From assembly GCA_029559475.1 (NCBI GenBank), contig JAKQBN010000051.1:1-27989 (forward strand): 27,989 nucleotides of DNA. Direction: 5' to 3'. The notes below the pieces were generated by a model. That model searched no databases. It saw only the letters and a program-made list of their open reading frames with translations, and had not been told where the DNA came from. This stretch comes from a bacterium. GTDB taxonomy: Bacteria > UBA4055. A program made the position numbers and the translations under genes. Positions 976 through 2,711 of the stretch are shown piece after piece; position 1 is the stretch's first letter; each line of letters begins with the position of its first letter.

Positions 976-1147
976 GGTGTTTCTCCTTTTTTATGATGTT
1001 TTACATTTGAGAAACCACCTGTACATCCGTATATTACTAAGGGAGGTACAGGCGGTCACCCGTACTTGTGAAGATTTGCAGCCGCAGCTTTTCCGGGCCC
1101 ACGGCTACTTTCTTGTATAGGGTTAAATCGAATAGTACCTCCTTTTT
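976..1147 (-). promoter_or_regulatory. Structured 5' leader, candidate translational riboswitch
   Basis: Read on the minus strand, the gap before the C13-like peptidase gene contains several pairings. Helix P2 is GTAGCCG with CGGCTGC (plus 1078-1084 and 1102-1108, one G-U). Helix P3 is the hairpin at plus 1046-1065 (GTACGGGT / GCCTGTAC types, two wobbles, GACC loop). A short closing stem pairs GGAG(G) at 1138-1142 with CTCC at 1042-1046. Nearer the gene, GGTGGTTTCTC (plus 1009-1019) pairs with GAGAAACACC over the ribosome binding site (plus 976-985), with one bulge. The 3' strand of P3, CCGCCTGTAC, can instead pair for ten bases (one G-U) with GTACAGGTGG (plus 1015-1024), which would break both P3 and the sequestering stem. 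This is the layout of an aptamer with a translational on/off platform. The two hairpins joined by a GCAAA-containing linker recall the GEMM (cyclic-di-GMP-I) architecture, but the hallmark junction sequences are not evident. No class is assigned. Confidence 0.55.
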
Positions 1148-2614
1148 TTATTTTAAATACAGCATAGATTTTGTTTGAAGGATCTTCCCGTTAACGACAA
1201 GCTGATAGAAATAAATACCGGTGTTCAGAACATTAGCCTGAAAGTTAACTGAATGAATACCTTTGTTCATTTTCTTATTAAGCAGGCTTTTTACTATCTC
1301 GCCTTTGATGTTATAAATATTCAATTGTATTTCTGATGCCTTAGGAATTGAGAATGTAATTTCAGTTTCATTATTAAAAGGATTAGGATAATTCTGATTG
1401 AGTGTTGCAGTGGCTGGTAATGTCAATTCTGGATCATCTATTCCTGTTTCTATCTGCCTAGACTGAAAATAAATATAATTATAAAAATTTTCAGTATTTG
1501 ACTTACCGTAAACTGAATAAATAAAACGATTATTATATAATTCGACATCGAATGGACCATAGCTATAATTTGCAGTATCCGATTGAACAACTTCCCTTAG
1601 AAATGAACCGCTAACGTTTGTCGTATATATAATGTTAGCATTAATGCTGAATTCATTTTCTACAAAATGAAGATGATCGTCTGAGCTGATTAACATTTCT
1701 TTCGACCTTGACATATTAGAATTTACATATCCTGCATTTTGCCACAAGGTATCTAACAATGATTTTGTGTAAATAAAATTTTTGTTCGTATAATCATTGG
1801 TACCATAGCATATACTGCTAATTAAATTACCTTCATTTGTAAGTATAATTGCTTGTGCGGAGGAAGCTTCTTCAATATAATCCATTAAACGTATAGTACC
1901 CCATCTTTCCCTGCTTCTGTCGTATTTCATATAAAAAGGCCGGTATTCGTCCAAAGCGTAAATATAATATTCACCGACAGCGTGTATATTATTATCTGCA
2001 TCAAAAGTAAAATCCTTCATATACATATTTTCATAAGCGCTTATACATGTTACCGTCCAGTTAGCCGTATTTGTATCCGAAGCCTCATGATAAGCGTAAT
2101 ATGTCTGGGTGGGACTCCACATTATTGCGTACAGCCTGTTGTTCGAATCTATTTTTAAATTCAGTCCGTTATTACAATAATATATTTCTTCCTGACTGCT
2201 CCAAGTAGTCCCATCATATTTTTTGTAATATATCATCGTACTTTCTGCTTTATATACAATATGAACATTATTTTGAGAATCGCAAACGGCATTTATCCTG
2301 TATAATCTGCTTTCTGTGTTTTCGGGTGTTATATTCTCTATTTCTGACCATGTCTGACCACCGTCTGCTGATTTTCGAAATTCGATATGACAGCGCCAAA
2401 CAAAAGGATCTTCAGTTTCTATACCTCTGACCCAGAAGGCATAAATCACTCCGTTGCTGTCAACAGTGATAGCAGGACTTGAATTAGTTGTTGCGGGATA
2501 ATTTCCGTCTTCTGAAAGCTGGATCGGTTCGCTCCATTCGTATTGGGCGAATATTTGTGTCGGCTGGAGAAATGATATAAAAAGAAACGCGAAGATCAGA
2601 ATTTTATTTTCCAT
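1148..2614 (-). CDS. Secreted beta-propeller-like (BNR/Asp-box) protein with T9SS sorting domain
   Basis: A 488-residue protein with a signal peptide (about residues 1-23, ending QIFA before QYEWSEP). The central part is rich in short beta-strand units of the type seen in sialidase-like propellers: an Asp-box SADGGQTW at about residues 82-89 and recurring phrases such as VDSNGVIYAFW, CDSQNNVHIVYKA and DSNNRLYAIMW. The last ~85 residues are a classical type IX secretion C-terminal domain: LNQNYPNPFNNETEITFSIP, an IQLNIYNIKGE strand pair and the closing GIYFYQLVVNGK. It is therefore probably exported across the outer membrane and attached to the surface or released. The start at 2614 has AAGGA seven bases upstream. 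No catalytic residues were recognised, and binding or structural roles are equally possible. The gene is visibly more AT-rich than the housekeeping genes to its right. A pentanucleotide repeat sits just upstream. Confidence 0.88.
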   Translation of the reverse strand: MENKILIFAFLFISFLQPTQIFAQYEWSEPIQLSEDGNYPATTNSSPAITVDSNGVIYAFWVRGIETEDPFVWRCHIEFRKSADGGQTWSEIENITPENTESRLYRINAVCDSQNNVHIVYKAESTMIYYKKYDGTTWSSQEEIYYCNNGLNLKIDSNNRLYAIMWSPTQTYYAYHEASDTNTANWTVTCISAYENMYMKDFTFDADNNIHAVGEYYIYALDEYRPFYMKYDRSRERWGTIRLMDYIEEASSAQAIILTNEGNLISSICYGTNDYTNKNFIYTKSLLDTLWQNAGYVNSNMSRSKEMLISSDDHLHFVENEFSINANIIYTTNVSGSFLREVVQSDTANYSYGPFDVELYNNRFIYSVYGKSNTENFYNYIYFQSRQIETGIDDPELTLPATATLNQNYPNPFNNETEITFSIPKASEIQLNIYNIKGEIVKSLLNKKMNKGIHSVNFQANVLNTGIYFYQLVVNGKILQTKSMLYLK

Positions 2615-2657: not shown

Positions 2658-2711
2658 AGTAGAGTAGAGTAGAGTAGAGTAGAGTAGAGTAGAGTAGAGT
2701 AGAGTAGAGTA
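2658..2711. repeat. Pentanucleotide tandem repeat (AGAGT)x10
   Basis: Ten perfect copies of AGAGT occupy 2661-2710, with a partial copy (AGT) before and a matching A after. On the minus strand the unit is ACTCT. The tract starts 43 bases upstream of the T9SS protein start codon at 2614, between a possible promoter and the ribosome binding site. Perfect short tandem repeats of this length are prone to slipped-strand length change. A five-base unit outside a coding region would change promoter or leader spacing rather than reading frame. Confidence 0.97.

Follow-up and report, generated by a model that had tools for sequence, protein, structure and literature searches.

A conserved RNA element occupies the 172-base intercistronic gap on the minus strand between a gene with the Por_Secre_tail sorting domain and one for a C13-like peptidase in the 27,989-nucleotide stretch of DNA analyzed here (the window). 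Judged from sequence comparison and predicted folding, the element is probably a cis-acting RNA restricted to its lineage, and it would set translation of the secreted-peptidase gene that follows it through a two-state switch between two helices, P1 and P4. Such a lineage-specific translational switch would probably be an orphan riboswitch, with a ligand step that we infer.

The leader, its neighbors and its relatives

The window is contig C81 of a 2.28-Mb genome of Candidatus Delongbacteria, and the stop codon of the upstream gene, which encodes a BNR-like protein, lies 5 nt from P1. The same genome carries a paralogous cassette on contig C44, whose leader is 98% identical to that of the window over 201 bases; mean identity of the two cassettes across the shared 1,484 bases is 88.8%. 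We noted that both contigs stop at the identical point within the paralogous C13-like genes (positions 1-1484 in the window and in locus L014), which suggests that duplication of the cassette interrupted the assembly.

Relatives of the leader were collected with two covariance models. The first, R1, was built from four leaders and recovered leaders outside its training set 5' of C13-like genes (G000:C60, G011:C49 and G007:C32); it also yielded new copies 5' of other peptidase genes. The second, R2, was built from eight leaders, five of which had one base taken out of an unpaired linker so that P2 aligned, and it scored 51.5, 67.9 and 70.7 bits on three leaders outside its training set (G000:C60, G010:C109 and G005:C145, respectively). 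With R2 we counted 12 elements in 7 of the 13 lineage genomes examined, three of the elements lying outside the training set. Weaker R2 matches in two further lineage genomes and weak covariance-model matches within coding sequence (L044, L051 and L054-L056) were judged to be chance. At E ≤ 0.01, R2 matched none of 277 genomes from outside the lineage and none of 395 Bacteroidota genomes (the phylum of a Bacteroidales relative), in searches whose stricter filters may miss weak distant members. Even unfiltered, there was no match at the lineage's C13-like genes that lack the element (G001:C105, G005:C11 and G012) or at C13-like genes outside the lineage. The leader of one further C13-like gene (L031, G011:C56) is longer and contains recurring GGTGGTA segments; R2 does not match it, and it may have decayed or be of another kind.

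All 12 elements are preceded by a Por_Secre_tail gene, the domain in G009:C265 falling below the Pfam cut-off (E 5e-5); the window's genome has only 39 such domains. All 12 are likewise followed by a secreted-peptidase-like gene. Nine of these downstream genes are C13-like, the one in G010:C342 as a sub-threshold match, and the others are a C25 gingipain-type gene (L047), an S8 subtilase (L048; match to solved subtilisins, E 1e-8) and a gene with papain-like motifs recognized by eye only, for which Pfam and PDB searches gave no match (L053). The regulated genes thus share the theme of secreted peptidases across several unrelated families, and this common theme points to a shared signal. It also makes identification of a ligand directly testable with short synthetic RNAs.

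Table 1. Parts of the RNA element and the genes on either side of it, in window coordinates.
Feature	Position	Strand	Evidence
Upstream gene, BNR-like protein with Por_Secre_tail	1148..2614	-	PF18962, 37.1 bits
Regulated gene, C13-like secreted peptidase, truncated by contig end	1..975	-	PF01650, 24.7 bits
Conserved RNA element in full, from P1 5' arm to CUCAA tail	1007..1142	-	R1 118.7 bits, R2 84.7 bits (window in both training sets)
P1 5' arm GGAGGUAC, Shine-Dalgarno-like	1135..1142	-	P1 paired in 94.7% of cells, 3 double-sided-change pairs
P1 3' arm GUACCUCC	1042..1049	-	Covariation, cognate matching
P2 hairpin GUAGCCG...CGGCUGC (CCGUAAUUA...UAAUUACGG in G001)	1078..1108	-	Covariation
P4 5' arm GACCGCCUGUAC, final four bases shared with P1 3' arm	1046..1057	-	Covariation
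P4 3' arm GUACAGGUGGUU	1013..1024	-	Covariation, cognate matching
AAUAUA, P4 loop, invariant	1030..1035	-	12/12 elements
Sequestor 5' arm GGUGGUUUCUC, overlaps P4 3' arm	1009..1019	-	Cognate matching
Sequestor 3' arm GAGAAACACC, over SD and up to start codon	976..985	-	Cognate matching

Covariation and the competing helices

The leader is conserved and structured, with covariation among its relatives. Folding of the window's leader against shuffles gave a z of -2.7, which by itself is modest support for structure. In a 12-row alignment that was fitted to a model with P2 and P4, favoring both, and from which P1 was absent, the three helices P1, P2 and P4 formed standard pairs in 89.6% of cells as opposed to 38-50% when the partner was slid. 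Double-sided changes occurred at 10 of their 22 pairs, and the covariation score was reached by none of 500 shuffles. Since G-U cells (20) outnumbered A-C cells (6), the functional form is most likely the RNA of the minus strand. Permutation also showed that cognate arms matched better than mismatched partners for P1 (p 4e-5), P4 (p 8e-4) and P4b (p 0.003), values that overstate independence because the 12 elements are mutually related and that serve as guides. P4b is the portion of P4 that is incompatible with P1, the P1 3' arm being re-paired within the P4 hairpin. Its cognate pairing was clearest in the window, G011 and G009:C265. It spans 7-8 bp in both the window and G011, shortens to ~3 bp in several other elements and is missing from G010:C342. 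A genome of the same genus carries two cassettes that have diverged but retained the architecture with changed stem sequences, P1 being GGAGGCG/CGCCUCC versus GGAGGUAC/GUACCUCC in the window and P2 being CCGUAAUUA/UAAUUACGG versus GUAGCCG/CGGCUGC.

An earlier note on this DNA had proposed much of this architecture. Its P2 hairpin was kept in 12 related elements with double-sided changes, and the alternative helix that it described between GACCGCCUGUAC and GUACAGGUGGUU is present and corresponds to P4. The enclosing GGAG/CTCC stem also exists, at a length of 8 bp. A further hairpin, P3 (plus 1046-1065), was rejected as a conserved part; it paired at 60.5%, which 112 of 500 shuffles equaled. Comparative evidence supports the central claim of two overlapping folds that either mask the ribosome binding site or expose it, with P1, whose 3' arm overlaps the P3 3' arm, as the competing helix and gatekeeper in place of P3. 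The note had called for a covariation test in relatives; covariation was found for P1, P2, P4 and the sequestor, and P3 was not conserved. An inner stem, P1b (AACC/GGUU-like), was judged by eye and dropped as inconsistent.

The sequestor over the ribosome binding site, also foreseen in the note, co-changes in several lineages. The P4 3' arm pairs as well with each gene's own ribosome binding site, and the window pair GGUGGUUUCUC/GAGAAACACC differs from the G009 pair GGUGGAUACUC/GAGUAUCACC by compensatory changes; the sequestor of G010:C342 is CAGUC..CUCC/GGAG.GACUG and that of G009:C265 is UGCG..CUUC/GGAG.CGCA. Cognate duplexes between tail and ribosome binding site were stronger than mismatched ones (p 9e-4 for 11 distinct, related leaders). 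When the tail plus linker was set against the ribosome binding site plus start codon, p was 4e-5, or 4e-4 for nine diverse members and 0.03 for the seven most distant. G000:C60, G011 and G007 have a weak SD sequestor and G005 has none, and some of these leaders show start-codon pairing instead. Because P4 and the sequestor share an arm and P4b overlaps P1, each with cognate matching, the competition is between P1 and P4b on one side of the element and between P4 and the sequestor on the other. Sequence and structure prediction together point to an expression platform of mutually exclusive helices at the ribosome binding site. For the window's leader through the start codon, the competing nested folds were predicted at -49.4 kcal/mol (P4 state) and -49.1 kcal/mol (P1 plus sequestor), a gap of 0.3 kcal/mol that matches the balance expected of a switch, though a single sequence is no proof.

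We propose that in the OFF state P1 would close the upstream P1/P2 domain and leave the P4 3' arm free, and that this free arm would pair with the Shine-Dalgarno and start region. In the ON state the P4 hairpin, comprising P4 and P4b, would take up the P1 3' arm, with the sequestor arm consumed and the ribosome binding site open. The two states would interconvert in the cell, with the P1 state presumably OFF, and binding of a small molecule to the P1/P2 domain may shift their balance, as expected of an orphan riboswitch. The most specific form of the proposal is a new riboswitch class confined to Delongbacteria, which would sense a small molecule via the P1/P2 domain (possibly pseudoknotted) and gate translation of secreted peptidases from three or more unrelated families, each beside a sorting-tail partner gene. 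This form is tentative and we lean slightly against it.

Alternative readings

The core arms of P1 and P4 do not overlap, which speaks against strict exclusion; the two helices need not exclude each other and a pseudoknot is possible. P1 and the P4 core would then stand together, nearly coaxial, as an H-type pseudoknot whose connecting loop would place its AAUAUA alongside P1. Once folded, perhaps with ligand bound, this pseudoknot would hold the anti-SD arm and be ON, and unfolding would free the sequestor. The P1 and P4-core arms adjoin with a junction of 0-1 nt in 12/12 elements, the connecting loop is 22-25 nt, the invariance of AAUAUA is unexplained by a plain hairpin loop, and P4 does not extend into P1 in G010:C342. 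Although the H-type geometry is allowed in 12/12 elements, the competing nested fold is likewise supported, and the P1-excluding P4b, with its 7-8 bp in the window and G011, showed cognate matching. Given this P4b result (p 0.003), a pure pseudoknot is a rival and not the leading reading, and we regard it as rather unlikely. AAUAUA was also considered as a sigma-70-like promoter and this was rejected, there being no promoter-like site at that position on the minus strand.

The P1 5' arm is itself SD-like and stands shortly past the upstream stop codon, and its GGAGGU is near-invariant. A terminating ribosome or bound 30S subunit might block P1, favor P4 and open the peptidase ribosome binding site, coupling the peptidase to translation of its partner with no metabolite sensed. 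The stop codon lies 4-7 nt 5' of P1 in 6/12 elements, and AGGAGGTACT also serves as the SD of a C44 BNR gene, with AGGAGGCACT for the other BNR gene. In the other 6/12 elements, however, the stop-to-P1 distance is 22-58 nt, out of reach of a terminating ribosome. The fixed stop position or leader peptide expected of a translation-coupled attenuator is not seen in the 12 elements, this distance being variable and no leader ORF conserved; the SD-like arm has no conserved upstream ORF, and the conservation of P2 and AAUAUA would go unexplained. We consider such coupling improbable. The identity of the P1 5' arm AGGAGGTACT (window 1134-1143) with the SD of a C44 BNR gene, whose neighbor has AGGAGGCACT (L014 4046-4060 and 2587-2600), suggests a possible ribosome-binding-site origin or role for the switch helix.

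Expression could also be set by melting of the sequestor, as in an RNA thermometer, or by a regulatory protein that binds P1/P2. The sequestor is an SD-masking hairpin and the conserved unpaired bases are possible protein contacts, but a thermometer would not need the conserved competing P1/P2/P4 domain and no regulator gene was found beside the elements in the loci examined. We hold either to be quite improbable. A DNA-level element or passive repeat devoid of RNA function (operator, mobile repeat or terminator) would fit the duplication of cassettes within genomes but is very improbable given the G-U-rich covariation on one strand, a sequestor that co-changes with its own gene's start region, a fixed position relative to the start codon, and the lack of any terminator-like site at the leader.

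Comparison with known RNAs and observations on the gene pair

Scans against Rfam 15 at gathering and permissive thresholds gave no match for the window and chance-level matches only for its relatives. The earlier note's suggestion of c-di-GMP-I (GEMM, RF01051) fails with this result; a 351-base scan did not match this family at E values as high as 10, and the likeness is limited to superficial GC-rich hairpins. The thiM TPP and btuB cobalamin leaders are translational riboswitches with an anti-SD expression platform. The proposed P1/P4 switch resembles these in its upstream structured domain, its competing helices and an arm that would alternate between an upstream partner and the SD, whereas it differs in having no Rfam match, in being intercistronic and lineage-restricted, and in that its ligand sensing is a candidate property. 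SAM-II and preQ1-II are pseudoknot riboswitches, and a possible H-type pseudoknot of P1 and P4 with an A-rich loop near the ribosome binding site would be similar. In contrast to these two, the pseudoknotted 3' arm would here be the anti-SD and not the SD, and the element has an extra large P2 domain in the first loop and no Rfam match.

A full-text search of the open-licence literature returned no paper on Delongbacteria with riboswitches, and nothing relevant on Delongbacteria with type IX secretion or on riboswitches with gingipains or secreted peptidases. The riboswitch-discovery papers compared do not mention a theme of extracellular proteolysis. Going by its sequence, the element appears to represent a new RNA family, and we class it as a candidate translational riboswitch; we found no description of it in the open-licence literature searched. 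If true, Delongbacteria would have an RNA family of their own and a candidate orphan riboswitch controlling extracellular proteolysis.

We also observed the gene pair without the RNA. In a distant genome (L057 3-2931), a Por_Secre_tail gene is directly followed by a C13-like gene with the element absent, so that the gene pair seems to be older and the RNA to have been added to it. The 5-bp unit AGTAG is perfectly repeated in tandem (10.8 copies, window 2658-2711) 44 bp 5' of the BNR gene start, and four copies (L015 8524-8543) lie 43 bp 5' of the matching BNR gene in a genome of the same genus. Changes in the AGTAG copy number could cause phase variation in the expression of the same gene pair.
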